A stretch of DNA of 32,469 nucleotides, from IMG/VR virus record IMGVR_UViG_3300009788_003935, positions 1-32,469 of that record, one strand, 5' to 3'. A program made the position numbers and the translations under genes. Of the stretch, positions 1,912-20,717 are shown one piece after another; the stretch's first letter is position 1, and each line of letters starts with the position of its first letter. This DNA comes from a virus. The notes beneath the pieces were generated by a model. That model saw only the letters and a program-made list of their open reading frames with translations, was not told the origin of the DNA and ran no database searches.

Positions 1912-3624
1912 ATGGGATTTGGTACTAGACTAAGAAATGGTTTAGCAAAGCTTCTTTCCAGTGAAACAGATGTCGTCAGACATCGCACAAACTCGCTGAA
2001 CCTAAACTTGGTTAAAGATACAATGAACAGCTCATTGTTATCTGAAATAGTGCCAGGTCTTTCTCAACCAATTTTTGGACCTGAAATTACAACCGTTGGA
2101 GCGTACAGTAGAGAAGGCTATACCAGTAGAACCTTTGATGTACCAACAGTTTCATTTAGAACACAAGCAGCAGCACTACAACAAGACGAAGATGTACAGC
2201 TTGCAATTAATGACTTGGCATCTAAAGTTACAGGAGGACAACACTACATCAAAGGAGATTCAGAAAGTTTTATTGAATACATGGAGGATTTTACAAAGAA
2301 CCTTCGCTTTGATACATTTGATACTGAACTAGTAAAGGAATTACTTTGGTATGGAAATTCTGTTTACAAACCTAGAATGGGGATTAGAAATGTTGAAAGA
2401 TTTTCTGATTTAATGCATATACCAATTTCATCTTTTGTGAGAATCTGGTGGGACAGACAAAGAGTTCCATACAAATTAGAATTTCGTGGAGCTGAATATC
2501 AAGGATATCATAATCCAGGCGAGGTTATGCATTTCAAATGGAATCCAGTTAATGCATCAGTCTTTGGTACGGGCTTTGGAATATCAGTTACTTCAACTAG
2601 AGACTTTACAATGCCATTATCTGGCGAGGATTCAGTTCAGGTACAATTACCATCAATGCTTGACAGAAAGTATTCTACTCAATTTCAAATGCAGATGGCA
2701 GAACAGCGTTACATTACAAGAAACGTTTGGATTGCAGATGGTGCATCAGCTGATCAAAGAGCAGTTCTTCAAGCAAGTATAGAGAATGCACAAATAGGAC
2801 AAGATATAATTTCAGGAACTAATGTTGAAGTAAAGGAATTAGGATCACAAGCTCGCAACTTTAACCCAGCTCAGTTTGCAGATATCACACAAGGCCCACT
2901 GTTTAAGGCATTAAATGACTTTAGAGGAAAACAAGCTGGAGAATCTACACATACATATGCTAATGCAGAACGTGCAGCTCTTTTAGATGAGATGGGACTT
3001 ACCGCATTTCCAATATCTGTACGAGAACAACTAAACGAATTACTCTTCAAGCCTTGGTATGATTCACATCCATTCTTTGATAGAAGCTACTATGACGGAA
3101 TGATTCCAGTTCCTTGGCATCTTACTCGCTTTGATTTGAACTTTGGACAAGTAGAGAAAAAAGATATTGCAGTCCAAGACATGATAAAACTAATTGAATT
3201 ATATCTGCAATCACCAATACCTAAAGACCCAAAACAAATCTTAAAATTATTCGAGCAAGCTGGATTGCCAATCGATGAAGATTATTTAGTTACAGTAGAT
3301 AATATTTACAATGATCCACACAATCAGTTTGCACTTGGTAATGCAGGAGGCAACTCAACATTAAACCAGGGAGGTGTTGAACAAACAGGAATAGTTTTTC
3401 CAAACAGAACCGCAGATGGACACTATCTCCCAACTGCTGATATTGGCGGTGAAAATATTCCTCCACAATTTAACAATCAAGTTATGGGTAGTCCTCCAAT
3501 GGATAATCCAATTTATGATTCTATGATGAGGGATGTACGTGGAACTGGCAATCCATTTGTGCCCTCAAAGTTTAGACAATCAAACCAATCACAGGATTTC
3601 AATTATGGGAGAGATTATGAATGA
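1912..3624 (+). CDS. Portal protein
   Basis: A 570-residue protein of the size and character of an HK97/SPP1-type portal, the ring at the unique capsid vertex through which DNA enters and leaves. Supporting features: a DEDVQLAINDLASKV segment near residue 90, the portal-like ELLWYGNSVYKP at about 142-153 (compare the LLxxGNxY motif of many portals), a central stretch rich in beta structure, and a C-terminal helical part ending in a low-complexity Asn/Gly/Pro tail. It is a soluble protein with no signal peptide. Context agrees: terminase on one side, protease, scaffold and capsid genes on the other. ATG 1912 is set by the promoter box. The stop overlaps the next ATG (ATGA). No frame problem seen. 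Confidence 0.82.
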   Translation: MGFGTRLRNGLAKLLSSETDVVRHRTNSLNLNLVKDTMNSSLLSEIVPGLSQPIFGPEITTVGAYSREGYTSRTFDVPTVSFRTQAAALQQDEDVQLAINDLASKVTGGQHYIKGDSESFIEYMEDFTKNLRFDTFDTELVKELLWYGNSVYKPRMGIRNVERFSDLMHIPISSFVRIWWDRQRVPYKLEFRGAEYQGYHNPGEVMHFKWNPVNASVFGTGFGISVTSTRDFTMPLSGEDSVQVQLPSMLDRKYSTQFQMQMAEQRYITRNVWIADGASADQRAVLQASIENAQIGQDIISGTNVEVKELGSQARNFNPAQFADITQGPLFKALNDFRGKQAGESTHTYANAERAALLDEMGLTAFPISVREQLNELLFKPWYDSHPFFDRSYYDGMIPVPWHLTRFDLNFGQVEKKDIAVQDMIKLIELYLQSPIPKDPKQILKLFEQAGLPIDEDYLVTVDNIYNDPHNQFALGNAGGNSTLNQGGVEQTGIVFPNRTADGHYLPTADIGGENIPPQFNNQVMGSPPMDNPIYDSMMRDVRGTGNPFVPSKFRQSNQSQDFNYGRDYE

Positions 3625-3860
3625 TTGATGGTACAACAGGTGATGGCAACTTTACATGGACTGGAGCTAGTACAACTAGTGGAAATTTTACATTAAATAC
3701 AGCAGTTACAGATACTTTCACATTTAGTGTAAATGGAACGTCCTACCAGCCTGTAATTCCTGACAAAAACTGGATGCCCTATAGATTTTTTGAATATGAT
3801 CCAAAATGGCACAAAAAATATGCACGATACAAGATTCAAATTAGTACAATGTGGGATTAA
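3621..3860 (+). CDS. Small protein coupled to the portal gene, unknown
   Basis: A 79-residue protein translated through an ATGA overlap with the portal stop; a GGGAG tract just upstream can serve as ribosome-binding site. The first half is a Thr/Gly/Asn-rich beta-type sequence (FTWTGASTTSGNFTLN), the second half is aromatic and basic (PYRFFEYDPKWHKKYARYK). It could be a small head accessory or a portal-associated protein. No family is recognised. Confidence 0.6.
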   Translation: MIDGTTGDGNFTWTGASTTSGNFTLNTAVTDTFTFSVNGTSYQPVIPDKNWMPYRFFEYDPKWHKKYARYKIQISTMWD

Positions 3861-3897
3861 GACGATCATCACAAAAAAGAACACATCATCCATTAAG

Positions 3898-3906
3898 CTT
3901 ATAAAG
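3898..3906 (+). promoter_or_regulatory. Host-like TATA element before the S-layer gene
   Basis: CTTATAAAG, centred about 31 nt before ATG 3933, predicts a leader of about 5 nt. It replaces the TACCTTTAAT box used elsewhere; a looser candidate, CTTTAAG at 3911-3917, is too close to the start to fit the rule. Confidence 0.4.
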
Positions 3907-3932
3907 AAATCTTTAAGAAAATAACTAATAAC

Positions 3933-6900
3933 ATGAATAACGAAATACAACGAAAAATAACTAGTCTAACACTCATGACAATAATGTTAGCTGGCGGTAT
4001 GACTATTGCATTTCCAGGAATGGAACCTGCATCTGCTGCCAACCCTAACTTGATTGTCTCCGCAACCACCTTTGGTGGACCAATGATTGTAGAAGTAGTA
4101 ATTGATGACGAAAGCTACCGAGATGATACTAACGAGTCTATGCCAAGCGTTACCGTTGATGGTCACGATTTGGTTGTAGCTCAAGGATCTGACGGTAGTT
4201 GGTATGGTTACTTTGTTGATTCAAACATGGCAAAAATAGCTGACGAAGCAAATACAGGTTTTGAGTTTGGTATAATACCAACTAACAATACCAGTGTTCT
4301 TGGTGCTAATCATGCCTTCTTTGATTCTAATGTAACTGTCTACGCTCCTGGTACATTATCTCCTAACGAGATTACTGTATTGAAAAATCCACGAACATTA
4401 GATACTAACACTGGTGCTAATAATGATGGACAGATTAAAGTTCAACCTGGTCAATGGCCTTTCATTCAAGCAATTGAGTTTACAGATAATTCAAAGATCA
4501 AGGTCGTTTATCGATCAGGAACTGATCAAACTCAAGTCATAACATATGACGAGAATATGGATGATTTTGCATCATACAGTACTGATAGAACTACATATCC
4601 ACATGGAGCAAACGTTCACCTTGTAATTGATGATATGCAACTAAACATTGACCCAACTGATGAAGATGTTTGGACATTTGATATTACAGGTAATCAAAAC
4701 TCCTACTATGGAAACTCAATCAATGCAACTACACCAGCATTACAAAATGCATTAAAGTATGGTGATAACGGCTTTTTGGATATCACAAAAAATGGTATCC
4801 TTGGAACTGTTAAAAACAATGATTCATTATTCCCAAATTCACTTCCTATTGCTAATTTGTTGACAGTCGAAGAAGATTTTCCAAACACTGGTAAATTTGA
4901 AAACACTGATGCTGCAAATGATGCAAACTTGAAAACTACGGATAACCTAAAAATTCGTGGCGATAGTGGAATCCTTGATTATAATGATGAACGTAGAAGC
5001 ATCCTAGTCGACTTCTTTACTGGTTCAATAAGCATGGATATGGCATCCATTGATCAAGATTGGAGTTCTGGTGAGAAACTCACTGTAACTGTTACTGATG
5101 AAGATCAAAATGTCAATACCAAGGTAGATGATGACTTTAGTGTCTCAGATCCTACAATATTTGAAATTCCTGCATTGAAGATTGGTTCTCCAATTAGTAT
5201 TGATGATAAAACTGTTCTAAGTGCGCCAACTGGAGTTACAATTGCTCAATTGGAGTTACAAAATACATCACTCCAAAATGAGATTGACATAGCAACTACA
5301 AACCAAACATCTTTTAGTAATTGGCTTGGATTAAACCAAACCTCTACAGATGTACAACAAGGAGTAGTTAATCAAGCTCAGGCAAATATCCTGGATGACA
5401 TCACAAATAATAATGGTACAAACGTGCCAGCTCTTCAGGCTCTATTAGTTCAAGCACAAACCGAGTTAACAGCAAATCAAACAAGTGTCAATACATCACA
5501 ATTAGGTGTTAATCAATTGAGTAGTATTATTACTAGTAATACTCTTTTGATTGCTACCAATCTAAGTGCTATTGCACAAGGATTTGATGGAACAATTCTC
5601 GCAAAAATATTCTTTGATGAATTTAGTAGCAGATTAATTGCTAATGCTAATAACCTTAGTACTGGTGTAGTTCATGTCAACTACCCAAAAACTATTGATG
5701 ATCTTCAAACATTCATCAATGGAACTAATGTCTACAGCTTTATCAATTATGATGTAAGCTCATTAAAGGCTGAGAACGTCAAGATTTCACTTTATGACGG
5801 TACAACAACACTTGAAATCGCAAGTGGTGATAAAGGATTTGATCAGTTGAATGCAACTGCAATCCAATCCCTTGCCAACAATGTACCTCTTACAGTGATT
5901 ATTGACTTTACCTCAGCAACATTAGATGGTAATTATGCCATTGTAATGGACTTTATGAGATATGCAGGTGAGGAAGGAAGAATTAATGATGCAATCTACA
6001 GATATGAAGCAGAAGAAACCACATTAAGTAGTGGAATCTATACTGGTACAATTGAATATACAATGCTCAATCAGATTAACATCTTTGATGTGACAACATT
6101 TTCTGGACTGGAAACCATTGGTGACCAGTTAGAAATTATTGTCCATGAGGATTTAACTGATGAAGATGCAGTAGAGTTAATCTACAATGATATCAACAAA
6201 CCAGGACAAAGAAAGCAAATCTCTGCTCAGACTGAAGCTCCAACACAATCTGCTAGAATATCATTTAATGATGATAACTACAAAGTAGGAGACACTGTAA
6301 CTATAACACTTGAAGATTCTGATTTGAATTCTGACAGTGAAACAGTAGATATTTACACTGTAGTACAAGATAATGTAATCGGTATTAACAATAATACTAG
6401 AGCATTCATGCTTGATATCACATTTAATGATCAAAGATGGGTAGATTGTAAAGATACTGATGGTGATCAAGTAGATGGTCTATTTGGTCCTATGAGCAGT
6501 ATTGTTGAAACCAGTCGAGATTCAGGAATATTCACTACTACATTCCAGGTTCCAAAAGAATTCTGTGAAACAAGTGGTGATACATTCATTGTTTCATCTG
6601 TAACAGGAAATGATATTGAAGTAAACTATCTTGACTTTAGAGACGCATCTGGTGAAGACATTGAAATAGGCGATTCTGCTGGAATTAGAGCCCATACTGG
6701 TTCTGTTTCCTTTGATAGAACTGTCTATCCAATACCATTTGGTAGTCCAAGTGAAGCAACTGATATAACATCAGCATCATACTTCCCAGTTCACGCTACT
6801 TCTGTTCCAAGAGGACAAGAAACCACAGCAGGATTATATCTAGCTAATGGTGACTTGACAATTCACGTAAGAGTCAATGATCCAGACTATGATCTCTCTG

Positions 6901-8843
6901 AAAGTGGTGAGGATAAAATTGCCGAAGACACTTCTAATGGCCCAATCAAAGTCTCTGTTATAAGAGGCTCAGACGCATTATTGCTGGGAACAGCAGGCGC
7001 AGCCGTTGCAAGTGGCGATAAGATTACCATCTCTTCTACTGTAGATAAAGGAGTTACACGAGAATTTGGTCCAATGACTGAAGTTTCTCCTGATTCTGGA
7101 ATCTTTGAGCTTGATCTACCTATCAGATATACTGATGGTCCTTCTAGCTCAACTTGTCCAGCAAGTGTTACTTCTTCACTAGAGCATATTAAGAGAGATC
7201 TTGGAGCTGACAATAGTAACAAGTTTTGTATCCTACAAGGAGATATTCTCCAAGTAGAATACACTGATCCAACTGATGCATCAGGTGATAGAAATACTGT
7301 CACAGACTCTGCTACATTTGATCTAAGAAATGGTGTATTGCAATCCGACAAATCCGTATACATAATTGGATCTGACATGATCTTAACCCTCATTGAACCA
7401 GACTTAGATTTGGACAATGACCAGGCTGAGACCTATGACTTGGACTTGATTGAATGGGACTCTGATGCAGCAACCACTACTATGGGCAACCTTGGTGGTG
7501 CAGATAATGCAGCAGCCTTTGATCCAGAACCATCAGCATTCAGAGAAACAGGTGACTCTACTGGAATCTTCCAGATTGTTATCGAGATTCCTGAATCTCT
7601 AAGCAATGATACCCTTGAAAGAGGTGAAGAAATTGTCTTAGAATATACTGATTGGGGTCCATCAGGAGCTGATTATGTAGGTGATGAAGATGAAGATGTC
7701 AATGTGACAATCTTTACTTCAAACTTCGGAGCAACAATTGAGCTTGACCAAAAAGTATACACATGGACTGATAAAGTCTACATTACTGTCGTCGCACCAG
7801 ATCACAATTTCGATGGTGATTTAGTTGATGAAATTGGAAATACTGAGAAAGACCCAATAAAGGTCTCAACTCGTGGTTCTGATATTGACAACTATAAACT
7901 CGTCGAAACTGGAACTGATACTGGTATCTTCACTGGTGAAGTAATCCTTACTGGATTCCTTTCACATGATGCAGATGGCGATGGTGATACTAAAGACGCA
8001 TCAGGTGCTAAATCACTTAACGGTGGTGGACCAACTGATGGGCTCTTACCAGCTGATGATGATGACGGACTTACTGTCTCCTTTGAATTCTCAGAGGATG
8101 AAACTGTAGTCGGTTCAGCACTAATCAGATGGAATATAGGAGAAGTCCAGTGGCTTGAAGCAAGCTATCCAGCCAGTGGTACAGGTGTTGTTAGAGTAAT
8201 TGACCCAGATATGAACTTAAATCCAGAAGCAGTCGACAACTATGATGTCGATGTGTGGTCTGACTCCGATGCTGGAGGTATTGACCTTACTGTAACTGAG
8301 ACTAATGAGGCAACTGGAATATTCGAAGGTACTGTGTTCTTCACAGTTACTGACGAATCTTCTGGCCACAGACTCAGAGTCGCAGAAGGTGACACTGTCA
8401 CCGCAGAATATGAGGACAATACACTTCCAGATCCGTACACAACCGCAGATGAACTTGATGTTACTGCCACTACACTAATTGGCACTTTGGTACCACCTCT
8501 TGAGAGGGTACCAGCATCAAACTTGCGAACCGTTGATGCATTCGGTAACAGCTTAGATGCTGTATCCGTTGATCAACAGGTACAAATCAGTGCTGACTTA
8601 GCAAACGGTCAGGACAGAGAGCAAGCATTTGCATATTTGGTACAGATCCAAGATGGCGATGGTGTTACAGTCTCACTAGCATGGATTTCAGGTACAATAA
8701 CAAGTGGTCAATCATTCAGCCCAGCATTATCATGGATTCCAACTGCAAGTGGTAGCTACACAGCAACCGCATTTGTATGGGAATCAGTAGATAATCCAAC
8801 GGCATTATCACCACCAGTTAGTACAACTGTAAGTGTAAGTTAG
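3933..8843 (+). CDS. Nitrosopumilus-type S-layer protein (virus-encoded)
   Basis: A 1,636-residue secreted protein with no internal stop. Residues 1-36 form a signal peptide: basic start, hydrophobic core, AGGMTIAFPGMEPASAA with cleavage likely after Ala35 or Ala36. The start of the mature protein (NPNLIVSATTFGGPMIVEV) is what I know from the main S-layer protein of Nitrosopumilus, which forms the cell-covering lattice. The rest is a chain of acidic Ig-like domains, with a recurring E(T/V)-x(2-4)-(S/T)GIF edge motif near residues 858, 1049, 1205, 1324 and 1456. Asp/Asn loops suggest bound calcium; many N-x-S/T sequons suggest glycosylation; four Cys are visible in the chain. Residues about 433-552 form a Gln/Asn/Leu-rich, heptad-like region that may be a helical insert. 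The C-terminus ends in a beta-domain without a membrane anchor. Viral genes flank it on both sides. Confidence 0.88.
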   Translation: MNNEIQRKITSLTLMTIMLAGGMTIAFPGMEPASAANPNLIVSATTFGGPMIVEVVIDDESYRDDTNESMPSVTVDGHDLVVAQGSDGSWYGYFVDSNMAKIADEANTGFEFGIIPTNNTSVLGANHAFFDSNVTVYAPGTLSPNEITVLKNPRTLDTNTGANNDGQIKVQPGQWPFIQAIEFTDNSKIKVVYRSGTDQTQVITYDENMDDFASYSTDRTTYPHGANVHLVIDDMQLNIDPTDEDVWTFDITGNQNSYYGNSINATTPALQNALKYGDNGFLDITKNGILGTVKNNDSLFPNSLPIANLLTVEEDFPNTGKFENTDAANDANLKTTDNLKIRGDSGILDYNDERRSILVDFFTGSISMDMASIDQDWSSGEKLTVTVTDEDQNVNTKVDDDFSVSDPTIFEIPALKIGSPISIDDKTVLSAPTGVTIAQLELQNTSLQNEIDIATTNQTSFSNWLGLNQTSTDVQQGVVNQAQANILDDITNNNGTNVPALQALLVQAQTELTANQTSVNTSQLGVNQLSSIITSNTLLIATNLSAIAQGFDGTILAKIFFDEFSSRLIANANNLSTGVVHVNYPKTIDDLQTFINGTNVYSFINYDVSSLKAENVKISLYDGTTTLEIASGDKGFDQLNATAIQSLANNVPLTVIIDFTSATLDGNYAIVMDFMRYAGEEGRINDAIYRYEAEETTLSSGIYTGTIEYTMLNQINIFDVTTFSGLETIGDQLEIIVHEDLTDEDAVELIYNDINKPGQRKQISAQTEAPTQSARISFNDDNYKVGDTVTITLEDSDLNSDSETVDIYTVVQDNVIGINNNTRAFMLDITFNDQRWVDCKDTDGDQVDGLFGPMSSIVETSRDSGIFTTTFQVPKEFCETSGDTFIVSSVTGNDIEVNYLDFRDASGEDIEIGDSAGIRAHTGSVSFDRTVYPIPFGSPSEATDITSASYFPVHATSVPRGQETTAGLYLANGDLTIHVRVNDPDYDLSESGEDKIAEDTSNGPIKVSVIRGSDALLLGTAGAAVASGDKITISSTVDKGVTREFGPMTEVSPDSGIFELDLPIRYTDGPSSSTCPASVTSSLEHIKRDLGADNSNKFCILQGDILQVEYTDPTDASGDRNTVTDSATFDLRNGVLQSDKSVYIIGSDMILTLIEPDLDLDNDQAETYDLDLIEWDSDAATTTMGNLGGADNAAAFDPEPSAFRETGDSTGIFQIVIEIPESLSNDTLERGEEIVLEYTDWGPSGADYVGDEDEDVNVTIFTSNFGATIELDQKVYTWTDKVYITVVAPDHNFDGDLVDEIGNTEKDPIKVSTRGSDIDNYKLVETGTDTGIFTGEVILTGFLSHDADGDGDTKDASGAKSLNGGGPTDGLLPADDDDGLTVSFEFSEDETVVGSALIRWNIGEVQWLEASYPASGTGVVRVIDPDMNLNPEAVDNYDVDVWSDSDAGGIDLTVTETNEATGIFEGTVFFTVTDESSGHRLRVAEGDTVTAEYEDNTLPDPYTTADELDVTATTLIGTLVPPLERVPASNLRTVDAFGNSLDAVSVDQQVQISADLANGQDREQAFAYLVQIQDGDGVTVSLAWISGTITSGQSFSPALSWIPTASGSYTATAFVWESVDNPTALSPPVSTTVSVS
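5227..5585 (+). other. Coiled-coil-like insert in the S-layer protein
   Basis: Residues about 433-552 change from acidic beta-domain sequence to Gln/Asn/Leu/Ile-rich sequence with heptad-like spacing (IAQLELQNTSLQNEI, ALQALLVQAQTEL, LGVNQLSSIITSN). This suggests a helical hairpin or stalk. Whether host homologues carry the same segment cannot be decided here. Confidence 0.45.
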
Positions 8844-8856
8844 AAACTAGTTCACA

Positions 8857-8878
8857 TTTCCCCTTTTTTCTTTTTTTT
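8857..8878 (+). terminator. T-rich terminator after the S-layer gene
   Basis: A pyrimidine tract with runs of six and eight T, starting 13 nt after the S-layer stop. Archaeal transcription ends at such T-tracts without a hairpin. It lies directly before the next ATG, so that gene needs read-through or its own promoter. Confidence 0.55.
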
Positions 8879-8881
8879 AAA

Positions 8882-9253
8882 ATGTCAAATACCTATACTG
8901 CTACACGACAATCATACTATCAAAAAAATAAAAAACTAATTAAAAAAAAGAGAAAACAAAATTATCAAAAAAATATCCTCAAAGAAAGACAAAATGCTCT
9001 TAATAGACATTCCAAAAACAAAGAAAGAAATAATTTTACCAGTCTTGTAAATTATTATGTAAATGATACAAAACTAAACAAAAAAAGACAAGAACGAAGA
9101 GAACCAAAACGACAACCAAATGTCAAATGTTTAATGTGTAAAAATAAATTTCATACCAAAAAAAATCCTTATGCAAAATTATCAAAAAACAAACCCCAGT
9201 GTCCAAAATGTGGTGATCGAATAATTATATTTATTAAATTAAATTTTTCTTAA
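8882..9253 (+). CDS. Very basic protein with C-terminal zinc ribbon
   Basis: A 123-residue protein extremely rich in Lys, Asn, Gln and Arg over its first 80 residues (KKLIKKKRKQNYQKN), then a four-cysteine zinc ribbon: C83-x2-C86 and C107-x2-C110 (CLMC, CPKC). The likely role is nucleic-acid binding; a regulator or DNA-packaging helper is possible. It follows the S-layer gene by 38 nt and has no box at the normal distance. Its AT-rich, A-heavy codon use differs from the flanking structural genes. The 3' end overlaps by 15 nt the end of a convergent small gene. No family is recognised. Confidence 0.55.
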   Translation: MSNTYTATRQSYYQKNKKLIKKKRKQNYQKNILKERQNALNRHSKNKERNNFTSLVNYYVNDTKLNKKRQERREPKRQPNVKCLMCKNKFHTKKNPYAKLSKNKPQCPKCGDRIIIFIKLNFS

Positions 9254-9397
9254 CAATCTCTTAATTGACTGAAATCTTATTTTTATCTTTAAGATAATGC
9301 CCAAGATTACACCGCTCATAGCATGTAGCAAAATATCTTCTATTCTAAACTCCATGTTCTGCAACTCGTTTACAACATATGACCAGAAATCATCCAT
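9239..9397 (-). CDS. 52-residue membrane protein, antisense between two plus-strand genes
   Basis: The minus strand encodes 52 residues beginning MDDFWSYVVNELQNMEF. There is an amphipathic, acidic N-terminal helix, a hydrophobic span of about 18 residues (ILLHAMSGVILGIILKI) and a strongly basic tail (RFQSIKRLLRKI). The composition is that of a real small membrane protein with a positive-inside tail, not of random frame. A box-like TACTTAAAAA (9429-9420) ends 23 nt before the ATG, close to the spacing of the other viral promoters. The gene converges on the zinc-ribbon gene with a 15-nt overlap. A holin-like or envelope-directed role is possible but unproven. Confidence 0.55.
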   Translation of the reverse strand: MDDFWSYVVNELQNMEFRIEDILLHAMSGVILGIILKIKIRFQSIKRLLRKI

Positions 9398-9419
9398 TAC
9401 ATATTACAAGTAAGTTGTT

Positions 9420-9429
9420 TTTTTAAGTA
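9420..9429 (-). promoter_or_regulatory. Weak viral-type promoter box (52-residue gene)
   Basis: TACTTAAAAA on the minus strand, 3' end 23 nt before ATG 9397. A degenerate match to TACCTTTAAT; position supports it more than sequence. Confidence 0.35.
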
Positions 9430-9440
9430 TGAAAACAATA

Positions 9441-9450
9441 TACCTTTAAT
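9441..9450 (+). promoter_or_regulatory. Viral promoter box (head maturation unit)
   Basis: Exact TACCTTTAAT, 3' end 21 nt before the GTG at 9471; this spacing supports the GTG start. Confidence 0.78.
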
Positions 9451-9470: not shown

Positions 9471-9836
9471 GTGCCTGAAAAATTAGATAGGTGTGTAGCT
9501 GATGTAAAAGCAAAGGGTGGAGCAGATAATCCTTGGGCAGTATGTAATGCATCTATTGGAAAAGAAGATGCTAAAGAAGAAAACAAAAAGACAAAAAATG
9601 AAATTAATGAAGCTATTATCCGTGAAAAAATTAACGCAAATAGACAGGTTCCAGTTTTTAATCCTCCAATTACAAATCGAGATGTAAAACCAAAAATCGA
9701 CAAAACAACAAAAGGCATTGGCGGTCAGGTGGGAAAAATTGACAGTTCTGCAAACACAAATAACATGACAACAGATCTGTGGAAAAAAATTCTTGATTCA
9801 CAGTTGAGGCGAAATGTCAAAGAGCCAAGATACTAG
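9471..9836 (+). CDS. Small Cys-motif head-region protein
   Basis: A 121-residue protein starting with GTG. Residues 1-30 hold the pattern LDRCVADVKAKGGADNPWAVCNASIG, two cysteines around an NPWAVC core. I know this C-V-x(n)-NP-(W/Y)-AVC motif from many tailed-virus genes near the prohead protease and portal, where it often sits as a short separate protein or N-terminal extension. The rest is Lys/Asn-rich and probably disordered, with a polar C-terminal helix. The last 23 nt overlap the start of the protease fusion, implying coupled translation. Function of the motif is unknown to me. Confidence 0.65.
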   Translation: MPEKLDRCVADVKAKGGADNPWAVCNASIGKEDAKEENKKTKNEINEAIIREKINANRQVPVFNPPITNRDVKPKIDKTTKGIGGQVGKIDSSANTNNMTTDLWKKILDSQLRRNVKEPRY

Positions 9837-11772
9837 AGAATCATTATGTGGTAACTGCAAACACTTTGTTGCAGGCGGTCTTTGTGAACTAGTAAAGGGA
9901 CAGATAAAGGCAAAAGACACATGTGATTTACACGCATATGGTTCCCCACAACCAATTGATACAAAAGTAGAACCAAAATACAACAAGCTAGAGGTAAACT
10001 ACAAACCAGGATTTATGGTAGAGACTGTATCTACTATAACAACTGGAGATGTTGCACAAAAAGCAATCCAGATGGAACACGATTTGTTATCTCGTGGAAT
10101 TCCTGAAGAAGAAGTGCATAGAGCAGTAATTGAATATTTCTCGCAACGTGAACCGCCATTTGCACAAAGCTGGCCTGGACCCGTAACAGGAACAGACATT
10201 GCAGGTAGAGTAAACAATGTAAAAGTTGTTGCAACAAGAGAACCGACAACTAACTTTGATGGACTACCAGAAGATGTACAACCATACCCAACACCAAACA
10301 AATCGTCATATGGAATTGGTAGCTCATCGCAGCCATACCAATCATTTTTTAGCCCAGATCCAAATAGTGTTGGCTCACTGTCTAATGTTTATGATGTACT
10401 AAACCCTCCATACCCATACGAGTCTGCATCAGCATCTGCAAACTGGTTGGGAACAGCATCTGATCTAAATTCTGAACCATCAATGCATGGAGAATACGGA
10501 TTCAATGTCGCAAAAGCAATTCCTGAATGGCGTTACAACATAGAAGACTCTCAAGTTTATCCACCAAAAATACCTGACATTATAATTCCACCAAGCGGTA
10601 CAAATCCACTAGCTGAAGCAAAAAAAGAAAAAGATGACACAAAAAAACTGCGTGATCTTTTATTAAAATGGGCTTTGCTGTTAGGAGGAGCAGCAGGAAT
10701 CGGTGTCATCATAAAAAACTATCTGGATTCAGGAGTTGATGACAAGCTACCAGAAAAACCACTAGAGATATTTGCAGAGTATCAATATCACGGACATGAT
10801 TCAGATGATGACTGTACTCCATACAATGGAAAAAGATTCAATCTATTAGAAACTCACAACAGACCAGTAATTCCAAGTGAAAATCTAGGATATACAACTA
10901 CACATCCAAACTGCAAATGCACATGGAAGATAGCACCTGATTATAAGGGTGCAGGAAATTCCCTTACAAGAAAAGAAGAGTCAGAGATTCATGGAATAGA
11001 AAGTCATATTGATAATGCATCAAAAGACGGCACACTACACACTGTAAAAAAAGACGGCACACTATCTGACAAAACCAGAAAAACAAATCCAATAAAAGAA
11101 ATTTGTGCATGTAATACTATACAGTTACCGCCAATTCGTCTTAATTTACCTAAATCTAAATTATCAAAAAAGACCTTACAGGAAAGCATTGCAAATCTTC
11201 GCACAGAATTTGATTGGCTGACTGATGATTATGTGACAAAGGCACGAGAGCTAGCTGCTGATTCTGGAGGGAAACTATACCTAGTACGAGCAGCAGGTGA
11301 ATCCATCACAGACCACAGAAGTGAAGGTGAACCATACAGAAGAAAACTATCAACTGATGAACTAAACTCTATGACTCGAACAGCGATTGGAAAAAATATG
11401 GATATCAATCACCAACCAGAATACGAAACAGATGCAACTATACTGGATGCAGAGTTTGACAAACATAGAAAAGAGATACAGATGTTAGTAATAGAGCGAG
11501 ATCCTCAGATAAATAATGCAATTGAAGATAAAAAAATTACAGCAGTATCAATTAACGGAGGTATGCCACGTTCTGAAACTATTGAACCATGTGATCATGA
11601 CTGTACTGATAGCTGTGAGCTTTGTGTTGTACCAAAAGGTGTAGTGTTGGGAGAAATTGACGGGATAGGAATGACATGGGTTGTAACTGATCCTAGAGGA
11701 TTGTATTGGAACGGTCACTTTGTTTCATCAGCTGAACCTGGAATTAAATTTACAAAAATTGAAACTCTGTAA
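9814..11772 (+). CDS. Fusion: minor head protein (Mu gpF-like) plus prohead protease
   Basis: A 652-residue multidomain protein. The N-terminus has a metal-site candidate: C12, C15, C24, C37, H40. Residues 50-270 are a Pro/Ser/Tyr-rich linker, and 282-304 form a hydrophobic Gly/Ala/Leu helix. Residues about 320-375 carry the minor-head signature ending in HPNCKCTW (H364, C367, C369), as in Mu gpF-like morphogenesis proteins. Residues about 480-610 look like a prohead protease of the assemblin/S78 type: His in INHQP (H533) and Ser in AVSINGG (S579) are the candidate catalytic pair. A late Cys cluster (C593, H595, C597, C601, C604) is unusual. Start ATG 9814 has GAGG upstream. It would cleave scaffold and capsid delta regions during maturation. 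Protease assignment is by pattern and position. Confidence 0.68.
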   Translation: MSKSQDTRESLCGNCKHFVAGGLCELVKGQIKAKDTCDLHAYGSPQPIDTKVEPKYNKLEVNYKPGFMVETVSTITTGDVAQKAIQMEHDLLSRGIPEEEVHRAVIEYFSQREPPFAQSWPGPVTGTDIAGRVNNVKVVATREPTTNFDGLPEDVQPYPTPNKSSYGIGSSSQPYQSFFSPDPNSVGSLSNVYDVLNPPYPYESASASANWLGTASDLNSEPSMHGEYGFNVAKAIPEWRYNIEDSQVYPPKIPDIIIPPSGTNPLAEAKKEKDDTKKLRDLLLKWALLLGGAAGIGVIIKNYLDSGVDDKLPEKPLEIFAEYQYHGHDSDDDCTPYNGKRFNLLETHNRPVIPSENLGYTTTHPNCKCTWKIAPDYKGAGNSLTRKEESEIHGIESHIDNASKDGTLHTVKKDGTLSDKTRKTNPIKEICACNTIQLPPIRLNLPKSKLSKKTLQESIANLRTEFDWLTDDYVTKARELAADSGGKLYLVRAAGESITDHRSEGEPYRRKLSTDELNSMTRTAIGKNMDINHQPEYETDATILDAEFDKHRKEIQMLVIERDPQINNAIEDKKITAVSINGGMPRSETIEPCDHDCTDSCELCVVPKGVVLGEIDGIGMTWVVTDPRGLYWNGHFVSSAEPGIKFTKIETL

Positions 11773-13664: not shown

Positions 13665-14870
13665 ATGGCAACCTCTAGACCAAAACACAACAGGCAATCT
13701 ATTTTACAATTAAAAGAAATGGCTCATGTCCAAGAAGCACTCTTGGCTAGTGCAGAAGCACAGCAAAGAGCAGGAAAGCCATTTGATATATTCAGACCAA
13801 TCAGAGAAACACCACTTTCAGTATTCTTTGATAGGGCTAATCCTAACGGATTTGAGGAAGGAAAACTAAATCCAAACTTACCAACAATTTGGAAGCATCG
13901 CTATGGAATCAGAATAGGTGATGAGGCCAGAGGTAACATGAGAATTGCAGGAAAGGAACTCAAAGAAACTGTCTCTGTTCCAAACTCACTATCTGCATTA
14001 AAGATTGCAGATGAGATACTAGAGGGAGCAGAACCTTGGAGCGACTGGAAACAATATGCCAGACTCATAGATATGGATAGTCCAAAAGTTAACGTCCCAC
14101 TTACAAAATATACCGACACAGTTGGTGGTGATCCTAGTAGCCAAAAAGGATTAGACATCTATACTGAAGCAGGCGGAATTCCTCCAGCAATTGGCGGAAA
14201 AGTGACCACAGTAGAACTTGATACAAGTGGTACAAACAATTCTTTCCGTGGAACTATCTCTGTGAATAGAAATGATGTAAAAGACAATAATTTCTTATCC
14301 GTTGAGCAATCGCTGAAGAACGCTGGTAACGAGTTTTACTTTATGGTTGGTAAAAAGATCATTGATGTTTTAGTTGATAGTACCGTAGTTCCAACAGCTA
14401 CCAAAGCTGCACTTGCAAATGCAACTCCAGTTCAAGAAGAACTAGAAGCACTAGTTGAAGTTATTCGTTCAAGATTCCCAGGAACACAAAGGAATCGTGC
14501 AGATACAATGTTTATGAATCCATCAGATGCAGCACTAACTGTAAAGACTGCATCCACTGGTGGTTTCTATCCGTTCTTTAACAGATTTGAGTTAGGACCA
14601 ACTGATGATACAGATGTAATTAATAATTCAGGACTAGCACAATCACTTGGACTCAGAGCAGTCTGGGAGACACCACAGATTGAAGCAGGAACTGTAATTA
14701 TTACGAAAAGAGATATCGCAGAAGTCGTTGGTTTACGGGAAGATCTTACAATTGAAAATTTTGATCTTTCTGTTGGTGGCCTTTATCAAAGCGATTTGGT
14801 AATACGAATAGATGTACAAGAGGCCCATAGTGATGTTGGGGCATTCAAAATCACCTCATACGATGTTTAA
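13665..14870 (+). CDS. Major capsid protein, HK97 fold
   Basis: A 401-residue protein directly abutting the decoration gene (TAG-ATG), with a purine-rich GAGAGGGG about 15 nt upstream. Features that fit an HK97-fold capsid protein: a helical N-terminal arm (LKEMAHVQEALLASAEAQQRA), an E-loop-like basic and Gly segment around residues 60-120, a long spine-like helix near FLSVEQSLKNAGNEFYFMVGKK, A-domain-type sequence MFMNPSDAALTV, and a beta-rich end VGLREDLTIENFD. Length is in the usual range, and scaffold and protease genes stand upstream. It would form the icosahedral shell. No clear delta-domain cleavage site can be named. Confidence 0.78.
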   Translation: MATSRPKHNRQSILQLKEMAHVQEALLASAEAQQRAGKPFDIFRPIRETPLSVFFDRANPNGFEEGKLNPNLPTIWKHRYGIRIGDEARGNMRIAGKELKETVSVPNSLSALKIADEILEGAEPWSDWKQYARLIDMDSPKVNVPLTKYTDTVGGDPSSQKGLDIYTEAGGIPPAIGGKVTTVELDTSGTNNSFRGTISVNRNDVKDNNFLSVEQSLKNAGNEFYFMVGKKIIDVLVDSTVVPTATKAALANATPVQEELEALVEVIRSRFPGTQRNRADTMFMNPSDAALTVKTASTGGFYPFFNRFELGPTDDTDVINNSGLAQSLGLRAVWETPQIEAGTVIITKRDIAEVVGLREDLTIENFDLSVGGLYQSDLVIRIDVQEAHSDVGAFKITSYDV

Positions 14871-18180: not shown

Positions 18181-20717
18181 ATACTGCACTAAATAGGATT
18201 TTTGTTTCTGGTACAGGTTCAGATACTCTAGATGTTATTGATGGTAGTGATAATACCATTATTGGTTCTCCTTTAGGTACTGGTATAAACCCTCAAGATG
18301 TAGCAGTTCATTCAGCAGCAAGCATAGCACTTGTTGCTAACTTTAATGATGATGATGTTCGAGTATTTGACACTTTAACTTTATTGCAAATTGGTCTTGA
18401 TATTACTGTAGGAGATGAACCACAAGGTATTGGAATAAACAGAGTTTCCCAAAAAGCCTATGTTGCTAATCATGGTGGTAGTAGTATTTCTGTAATTGAT
18501 GTTGACTCTGGTTCTGGAACCTATCTCACTGTACTTTCTACAATTACTACAAGCATTCCAGCTAATCCATTAAAGGTTGCAGTAGATGAAACTCTAAACA
18601 GGGTTTATGTTACACATTCAGGTGGAACTGTCTCAATAATTAATGGTTCAACTGACGCATTTATCAGCTCATTAACTGTTGGTACTTCACCATTTGGAAT
18701 TACTGCCAATTCTCAAAGCAGTATGGTTTATGCTACAAACAGTGGAGCTGATACCATATCAGTAATTAATGGTACAGATGTTGCAGTAGTTGAGACGATA
18801 GCTGTAGGTGATCTTCCGTTTGGGATTGCAATACATCCATTCTCTCAAGTGTTAATTGTAACTAACGTAGACGATGATGACTTTACTGTGTTTAATCCAA
18901 ATACCTTTGATGTAACAGGGTTAACATTTACCACAAATGGTTCAGGTGATACACTACGAACTTTGGATAATAATACTGGATATTTCCTAAACATACCAGT
19001 TGCCTCAGATGTTGGTCGGGTACTTCCTCCTGATGCTAATATTCTAATTCATGCAGACTTTGCTTCAGTTAATAATATTACAATAACTGGAGGTGGAAAT
19101 ACGTTACTTAGTACATTAACTGGTGAGACGATGGCCAGTTTACAACTAAGAAATGTAGATCTCCTAGATGGTGGACCATTTGCTAACACAGCATTTGATC
19201 TTACAGGTACAAGCTCAGTTGCACCTAACATATCCATTGCATTTTTCACAGATATTTCAGTAGGTCTATTTGGTAATCTTGGTACATTAACAAACATTTT
19301 CAATCCTCAACTATTTCTAAACATGGTCCCCTTTGCTAGTGGACTTACACTGAATAATGCAGTAGTTAATGTCATTGGTGCATTGTACCAACCAGCTTTT
19401 CCAAGTGTGGATATTTTTACAATTAATAATCTGGAGGATACAGCTCAATTATCGACATTCATTAGTATTTCAACTCCAGTAATACCAAGCTCTAGTGTTT
19501 TTAATATCAATCCTGCAACTCCACTATCAAATAGTGTAGTAATTTCAGATAGCGGACCTGCTGGGGGTGGTGATTATTTCAAACTAGGAACAGAGGAAAC
19601 AGGTGCAATCACAGCATTTGCAGTTTCAGGTGGTAACACTGAAGTAACAAGTGCTTCACATGGATTAGTAGCAGGACAGTCACTAGAGATAAGTGAATCT
19701 ATAAACTATAACGGAAGATTTGCAATAGTTGGTACTCCTGGTGCTAATGATTTTGTTATCGCAAGAACATTTGTAGGAAATGATGCTGTAGGTAATTTTA
19801 CACAGGTAAAGGCAATTGAGACTTTTGCTGCAAACACTGCAACAGTTGGAACTGTAGATTCAACTGCTGATAATGGTGCATCAGGAACTACCGTAACTGA
19901 TACTGCACATGGTTTAGTAGATGGCACATCTGTTACAATTGCAGGTACTACAAGTTACAATGGCACATTTACAATCTTTAATGTAACTACCAATACCTTT
20001 GATATTGCAGTAGCCTTTGTAGGTGATGAGTCAGGAACATGGGTAGCAAATAAAACTACACTAACTGTAACTGCACATGGATTCTCAAACGGCACCCCTA
20101 TTCTAGTTGATGAGACAATAGATTATGACGGAGGATATTTGGTAGAAAGTATTACTGCCGACACACTTGTAATTAATACAATATTTGTAACTGATGAATC
20201 TACAGGCATAGTAACTGATGCCTCCCTTGATCAAAACGCACTAAATGTTTTGGTAAATACTGTAACAGGTGTAATTAACAGCAAGCCAAAAGCTAGTTCT
20301 TTTGTCAATGCTAATGCAACCTCATTTACACCTGGTTCTACTTTTGGTGATTTAACATTAGGTACAGTAGGTGATGCTGCAAATGAAGGAAGTGATAATG
20401 AACTATGGAGATTAACAGATGAGCTTACAGGCGAGATGGAGTATAGGGGATTAGAGCCATTCTCAGGATCTTTAATCTCATCAATTAGTGCCACATCTTC
20501 AGGTGGTGACCAAATCTTTAGATTCAGAGCAGTAAAGAACAGTGGCCCAATGGTTGATCAGATAGAAACAAGATTATCCATAGGAGGTGCCACACTAACC
20601 ACATCACTAATCGTACCTGTAACTGCAATTACAGGTGATAAGATAAGGATTCAGGTATTACGAGAGGCAGGGGGTAGCACCCTTGTAGTAGATGATTTGG
20701 CTACAGTAATTCAATAA
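18159..20717 (+). CDS. Giant fibre protein, C-terminal part: rest of YVTN propeller, HGL repeats, beta end domain
   Basis: The frame continues the propeller exactly where the previous one breaks: FPTGVDIDTALNRIFVSG, then GDEPQGIGINRVSQKAYVAN and TSPFGITANSQSSMVYATN. The first in-frame canonical start (TTG 18384) lies inside a blade, so this is not an independent gene. After the propeller (to about 18900) come a beta region, three repeats of the HGL-(V/x)-x-G-x-S...YNG type (about 19638-19733, 19884-19985, 20061-20150), known from many phage tail proteins, and a C-terminal beta domain with ELWRLTDELTGEMEYRGLEP. Joined with the two upstream pieces the protein would have about 1,584 residues. 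Likely a virion fibre for cell-surface glycans or S-layer. The stop at 20717 is followed by a new promoter. Confidence 0.68.
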   Translation, partial: FPTGVDIDTALNRIFVSGTGSDTLDVIDGSDNTIIGSPLGTGINPQDVAVHSAASIALVANFNDDDVRVFDTLTLLQIGLDITVGDEPQGIGINRVSQKAYVANHGGSSISVIDVDSGSGTYLTVLSTITTSIPANPLKVAVDETLNRVYVTHSGGTVSIINGSTDAFISSLTVGTSPFGITANSQSSMVYATNSGADTISVINGTDVAVVETIAVGDLPFGIAIHPFSQVLIVTNVDDDDFTVFNPNTFDVTGLTFTTNGSGDTLRTLDNNTGYFLNIPVASDVGRVLPPDANILIHADFASVNNITITGGGNTLLSTLTGETMASLQLRNVDLLDGGPFANTAFDLTGTSSVAPNISIAFFTDISVGLFGNLGTLTNIFNPQLFLNMVPFASGLTLNNAVVNVIGALYQPAFPSVDIFTINNLEDTAQLSTFISISTPVIPSSSVFNINPATPLSNSVVISDSGPAGGGDYFKLGTEETGAITAFAVSGGNTEVTSASHGLVAGQSLEISESINYNGRFAIVGTPGANDFVIARTFVGNDAVGNFTQVKAIETFAANTATVGTVDSTADNGASGTTVTDTAHGLVDGTSVTIAGTTSYNGTFTIFNVTTNTFDIAVAFVGDESGTWVANKTTLTVTAHGFSNGTPILVDETIDYDGGYLVESITADTLVINTIFVTDESTGIVTDASLDQNALNVLVNTVTGVINSKPKASSFVNANATSFTPGSTFGDLTLGTVGDAANEGSDNELWRLTDELTGEMEYRGLEPFSGSLISSISATSSGGDQIFRFRAVKNSGPMVDQIETRLSIGGATLTTSLIVPVTAITGDKIRIQVLREAGGSTLVVDDLATVIQ

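Follow-up and report, generated by a model that had tools for sequence, protein, structure and literature searches.

A Nitrosopumilus-type S-layer gene with a host-type switch and stop signal suggests that a virus alters the surface of the infected cell

An intact S-layer gene among viral structural genes

The window considered here, i.e. the whole stretch of 32,469 nucleotides that was analysed (IMG/VR record IMGVR_UViG_3300009788_003935), carries on its plus strand an uninterrupted ORF (3933-8843) of 1,636 amino acids, which is matched over its whole length by the S-layer protein of Nitrosopumilus maritimus (NmSLP, Nmar_1547; PDB 8c8k-8c8r; E = 0 in a phmmer search against the PDB). The two proteins have near-identical C-terminal stretches and share the N-terminal motif MNNEIxRKITSLTLMTIM. 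Residues 1-36 (3933-4040, plus strand) form a signal peptide, probably cleaved between ASAA and NPNL, with a mean identity of 72% to cellular signal peptides (vs 71% from cell to cell); NmSLP has been modelled from residue 37 on (PMC11153153). The uninterrupted frame, the conserved signal peptide, the full-length homology and the N-terminal fold (Z 36.7; see below) confirm what the preliminary description had claimed, namely an intact, full-length, secreted S-layer protein of the Nitrosopumilus type, and the same homology and fold contradict an origin as an unrelated adhesin. None of the four complete viral copies of the gene contains an internal stop, and pairwise dN/dS values of ~0.3-0.4, found for viral and cellular copies, indicate that the viral ones are under purifying selection. 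Neither the S-layer protein nor the capsid protein encoded at 13665-14870 had a homologue among INPHARED phages in tblastn searches, and the S-layer, portal-like and capsid proteins, each searched singly, had no Pfam or PHROGs match at E 0.01; Pfam matches to IL28A, CRIPT and XM1 gp53 fell under the curated cut-offs and were discarded.

The neighbouring genes, all on the plus strand, are viral. Upstream lies a portal-like gene (1912-3624), named from gene order, i.e. from its conserved position ahead of the protease/capsid block in relatives; its product had no significant match in the family libraries. Downstream follow a gene of the head morphogenesis/head maturation protease family (9814-11772), whose members in several relatives match the PHROGs of these two names down to 1.9e-6, and the gene for a major capsid protein of the HK97 fold (13665-14870). 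For the latter, the leading Foldseek matches were capsid-type, the first being that of the archaeal tailed virus HFTV1, and predicted viral structures also speak for the fold; the underlying AF2 model is poor (pLDDT 58), and its matches give the fold class only. The PHROG 'major head protein' was matched, with weak E-values, in 17 of 34 relatives. Portal and capsid profiles returned weak chance matches only from the PDB, and the capsid gene had no match in 250 Nitrosopumilaceae genomes. The S-layer gene had been placed between the genes for a portal and a prohead protease, of which the protease is borne out by its PHROG matches and the portal stays an assignment by gene order. The structural genes also include NHL-repeat and YNCE-like beta-propeller proteins (920-1873 and 18384-20717), which are perhaps receptor-binding.

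What sets this locus apart from its counterparts in related viruses? Eight close relatives (L084, L086, L088, L089, L090, L099, L121 and L132) have no S-layer gene here, and nothing larger than small ORFs separates their portal-like gene from the protease. Homology with five of these ends at ~3858, which is the end of a small ORF (3621-3860), and restarts at ~9437, at a viral box ahead of ORF 9471. Taken together, these observations point to an inserted block at approximately 3861-9436 (plus strand), composed of the S-layer gene, its control sequences and a small ORF (8882-9253, plus strand) adjoining it. This ORF encodes a basic protein of 123 amino acids with CxxC pairs, for which a search of 250 Nitrosopumilaceae genomes gave no convincing homologue; its homologue in contig L003 weakly matches Phage_zn_bind_2. 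A small zinc-binding-like ORF adjoins the S-layer gene in the window, L002, L003 and L004, i.e. in all contigs with downstream sequence present. No PF00589 integrase was found in 11 records, all of them possibly incomplete.

The order portal-like gene, S-layer gene, small ORF, ORF 9471-type gene, protease and capsid recurs in L003 (3300009788_000211) and L004 (3300028610_003302), one of which comes from another metagenome. A chimeric assembly, which the preliminary description had allowed for, is contradicted by these common junctions and looks very unlikely from the comparison with relatives; together with the viral neighbours and the HK97 capsid gene, the junctions also uphold the earlier view that the gene is not a simple host flank. 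S-layer genes in viral contigs were detectable by scanning with a conserved sub-region of the protein. Of 50 capsid-bearing contigs (the window and 49 related contigs found via the capsid protein), three carry the gene, and no S-layer match was present in the other 47, many of which are fragments. In a tree of portal, ORF 13173 and capsid, the three carriers fall within a five-member clade (100/99), and L004 is sister to L099, which has no S-layer gene, so that at least two gains or losses have to be assumed. The S-layer trait is thus rare and unstable in this virus group.

Control sequences of the S-layer gene

The window contains nine copies of the box ATACCTTWA, vs 0.85 expected, mostly 25-32 bases ahead of viral ORF starts, and this box is likely a viral promoter. 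Its copies lie at 549 (minus strand), 888, 1880, 9440, 14870, 15209, 21065, 22829 and 28051. The copy at the right-hand border of this block, ATACCTTTA (9440-9448, plus strand), stands ahead of ORF 9471. Viral boxes had been noted on both sides of the S-layer gene; those at 1880 and 9440 are real, but they belong to the flanking genes, and none precedes the S-layer gene itself.

What stands before it instead resembles a host promoter. With a matrix built from 30 cellular S-layer promoters, 3873-3932 (plus strand) was the sole strong promoter site in the window (z 7.4; runner-up 4.1), with 41 of 60 bases agreeing with the cellular consensus. This putative host-type promoter consists of a degenerate dyad (~3879-3892), a TATA-like TTATAAAG (3899-3906) and a leader ending in CTAATAAC that abuts the ATG. 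The dyad is better preserved in L004, L007 and others, and the same matrix ranked the S-layer promoter top in five of five other viral loci. Upstream of cellular S-layer genes of Nitrosopumilales (L009, L020, L025 and others) there is a near-invariant dyad (TGGACAATTCGTCCATTA), followed by a TATA element and a leader with CAATAAC directly before the ATG. Each of 61 genomes of the family has 0-2 occurrences of the dyad pattern, located at S-layer genes wherever positions could be compared, and the dyad is apparently an S-layer-specific control element in Nitrosopumilales.

A terminator-like 3' element of the cellular type, ACTAGTTCACATTTCCCCTTTTTTCTTTTTTTT (in outline ACTAGTTC...CTTTTTTTT), follows the gene at 8846-8878 (plus strand); its matrix score was 51.9, the next best site scoring -0.7. 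Because the S-layer gene keeps both the cellular promoter type and the 3' element, it would constitute a self-contained unit akin to a phage 'moron', as far as promoter and terminator-like element can be read from sequence. Like morons, the block lies between two structural genes, has its own promoter and 3' element and is absent from close relatives; unlike them, it occurs in an archaeal virus, its promoter and 3' element look like the host gene's own, and no integrase was found.

Conserved and divergent parts of the viral protein

Divergence from the cellular proteins is unevenly spread along the viral one. The membrane-proximal C-terminal part (aa 1121-1636; 7293-8840, plus strand) has a mean identity to cells of 82-90% (vs 78-88% from cell to cell), reaching 95% in places, whereas the N-terminal 669 residues are only 27-35% identical to cellular copies. 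Viral-to-cell mean identity is 34-36% for aa 37-430 (vs 46-53% from cell to cell) and 17% for aa 431-585 (vs 23%). General composition is of the cellular type, with 10.9% Asp and an acidic gradient (net charge of -9.1 to -14.1 per 100 residues, from N to C); the window copy has 19 N-glycosylation sequons, within a range of 8-25 across viral copies.

Modelled with AF2, aa 37-705 (pLDDT 82) superimpose on 8c8r with Z 36.7 and an rmsd of 2.7 over 544 residues, a fold match that covers the N-terminal 669 amino acids, the C-terminal part being matched by sequence. From the model and structure comparison, the beta-sandwich domain at aa 417-678 (5181-5966, plus strand) is taken to be domain 4, which points outwards in the N. 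maritimus lattice (PMC11153153). Within this putative domain 4 the model places a sequon-rich insert of four helices (aa 445-548; 5265-5576, plus strand), predicted at a low local pLDDT of ~50-66. In five of the six viral copies the insert region measures 122-403 amino acids, vs a median of 62 and a maximum of 108 in cells, and the viral insert regions bear 2-10 sequons; the one viral copy without the helical insert is that of L004. Structure matches of model region 381-642 include carbohydrate-binding modules at middling Z values of 5-7.

How does the viral protein compare with NmSLP as a whole? The two are alike in full-length homology, signal peptide, N-terminal domains, charge gradient and sequons, and related cellular S-layer genes have the same type of promoter and 3' element. 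The window copy differs in being virus-encoded and on a separate branch, in its more divergent outer domains with the predicted four-helix insert, and in having a small, virus-only gene behind it.

S-layer genes also occur in at least two virus lineages that are more distant. Contig L002 (3300028610_002655) contains an S-layer gene with the same downstream small ORF, along with terminase and tail-fibre matches; it showed no match to the portal and capsid genes of the window and has distant tail-module genes in common with it (30-44% identity), which argues for a distant lineage. L002 also encodes, at 237-896, a 219-residue protein built of 'KTTIFKH' repeats. L007 (LFLC01000054.1), filed in a bin of ammonia-oxidising archaea (AOA), has a gene for a terminase large subunit upstream of the S-layer gene and a viral-type primase; its S-layer protein exceeds 1,905 amino acids, with an insert region of 403. 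Nothing except the S-layer gene was detectably common to L007 and the window, and the L007 terminase had no match in 13 other virus records. L021, likewise from an AOA genome bin, measures 6.5 kb, and its S-layer protein groups with the viral copies. Both L007 and L021 look viral, the latter by its S-layer grouping.

Trees were built with six viral copies (the window, L002, L003, L004, L007 and L021); they are quick, unrooted SH-aLRT trees in which the position of L004 is only moderately supported. In the tree of 61 sequences, a supported branch (95, counting one long-branch sponge-symbiont sequence, L079, that fell among the viral copies) parts the viral copies from 54 cellular ones, a second cellular paralogue included. 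In trees of the two protein halves, from which L079 was left out, all six viral copies lie on one side, with a support of 92 for the C-terminal and 76 for the N-terminal half; the five copies without L004 reach 98 and 97, respectively. The viral copies thus appear to group apart from cellular ones in both halves, and the tree called for in the preliminary description puts the protein on a virus-side branch of the Nitrosopumilus-type family. AOA S-layer genes were also encountered in bins labelled Gammaproteobacteria, Nitrosomonas, Neomarinimicrobiota and Robiginitomaculum (L024, L025, L035, L041, L011), a probable case of bin contamination.

What a virus-made S-layer might do

Judging from the S-layer gene, the host of the virus is most likely one of the Nitrosopumilales. 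What would such a virus gain from an S-layer gene with a host-type switch and stop signal? The arrangement suggests that the virus alters the surface of the infected cell, and recoating of that cell fits the evidence. Host polymerase might read the retained S-layer promoter, which would make expression independent of the viral programme run from ATACCTTWA boxes. The product would then be exported and N-glycosylated by the host, and might enter the hexagonal lattice via its conserved membrane-proximal half, so that the host protein would be diluted or replaced by a version with different outer domains, which usually bear a helical, sequon-rich spire. Such a changed outer face could remove or hide an S-layer receptor from competing virions and from released sister virions, amounting to superinfection exclusion. 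A second, lesser option is that remodelling of the surface helps virions to leave. We rank replacement or masking of the receptor first because HFTV1 and HRTV-DL1, two tailed viruses of archaea, have the S-layer as their receptor (PMC9973310, PMC10544981), and by analogy with these haloarchaeal systems the S-layer of ammonia-oxidising archaea is likely a virus receptor as well. A caution is that HFTV1 itself shows no superinfection exclusion at attachment. Further points that weigh against this reading are the rarity and instability of the trait, the capsid gene without a match in Nitrosopumilaceae genomes, the L004 copy without helical insert, the low confidence of the modelled helices and the degenerate dyad of the window copy. 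On balance, we give an even chance to the proposal that block 3861-9436 derives from the host and forms a self-contained S-layer unit, which recoats the cell and blocks rival viruses. The wider proposal, to which we give slightly less than that, is that tailed viruses of ammonia oxidisers, in at least three distinct lineages, may possess an S-layer lineage of their own that keeps host-type control and the lattice-side half but has an outer face specific to viruses; infected cells would then wear a virus-made coat.

Receptor change is thereby placed ahead of upkeep of ammonium capture, aid to egress and decoration of particles. Upkeep, which we consider unlikely but the best of these alternatives, would have the virus supply S-layer protein during a slow infection, preserving ammonium capture and cell integrity while host transcription fails, as an auxiliary gene that leaves the receptor unchanged. 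The N. maritimus S-layer does concentrate ammonium, and binding is abolished when it is lost (PMC11153153). The Asp content, charge gradient, host-type promoter and conserved C-terminal part retained by the viral copy would suit this role, which, however, leaves unexplained why the outer domains diverge beyond the cell-to-cell level and why five of six viral copies carry an insert. It is also conceivable, albeit with a distinctly lower probability, that viral subunits weaken the lattice or widen its gaps for virion release. An S-layer hinders release, and packing could be upset by the insert and the diverged outer domains, but a lattice poison would need neither a full-length copy held under constraint nor a host promoter type in place of the viral box. 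Slightly more doubtful still is a role in the virion, where the protein might decorate the capsid or the tail, perhaps forming a layer that binds sugars or serves mimicry. The location among structural genes and the carbohydrate-binding-module matches speak for it; against it, most close relatives do without the gene, which has no viral box such as its neighbours have, and the signal peptide is conserved, yet tailed virions assemble in the cytoplasm. This secretion signal thus disfavours the particle role that had been suggested earlier. Finally, the C-terminal part so similar to that of cells and the host-type control elements could be read as an assembly chimera or as passing host DNA without a role, a reading made hardly credible by the two contigs with the same junctions, the virus-side branch in both half trees, the divergent N-terminal part and the purifying selection.

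Precedents for the preferred reading, i.e. recoating with a changed receptor, are few. In the part of PMC9004378 concerned with methylophage Melnitz, gene 23 is given as a putative S-layer-type protein with a postulated role in protection from superinfection. It resembles the present case in being an S-layer-type gene borne by a virus and in the role proposed for it, and differs, as far as that part goes, in its bacterial host and in being an annotation only, whereas the window protein matches a solved S-layer over its full length and comes with host-type control. A figure legend in PMC6563490 lists an S-layer protein on a thaumarchaeal cryptic integrated element, likewise a mobile element but, from that legend, integrated and not a tailed virus. 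In a literature search with incomplete preprint and subscription coverage, no report was found of a virus-encoded S-layer of ammonia oxidisers, nor of host-type control elements retained on an S-layer gene of a tailed virus.

Ammonia-oxidising archaea are nitrogen cyclers of global importance, and the S-layer is their ammonium sieve. If the recoating proposed here is true, viruses can remake the entire outer surface of their host, with consequences for superinfection, for ammonium uptake by infected cells and for how S-layer diversity evolves in the ocean; and, the differing outer domains now being named, the receptor question becomes testable.
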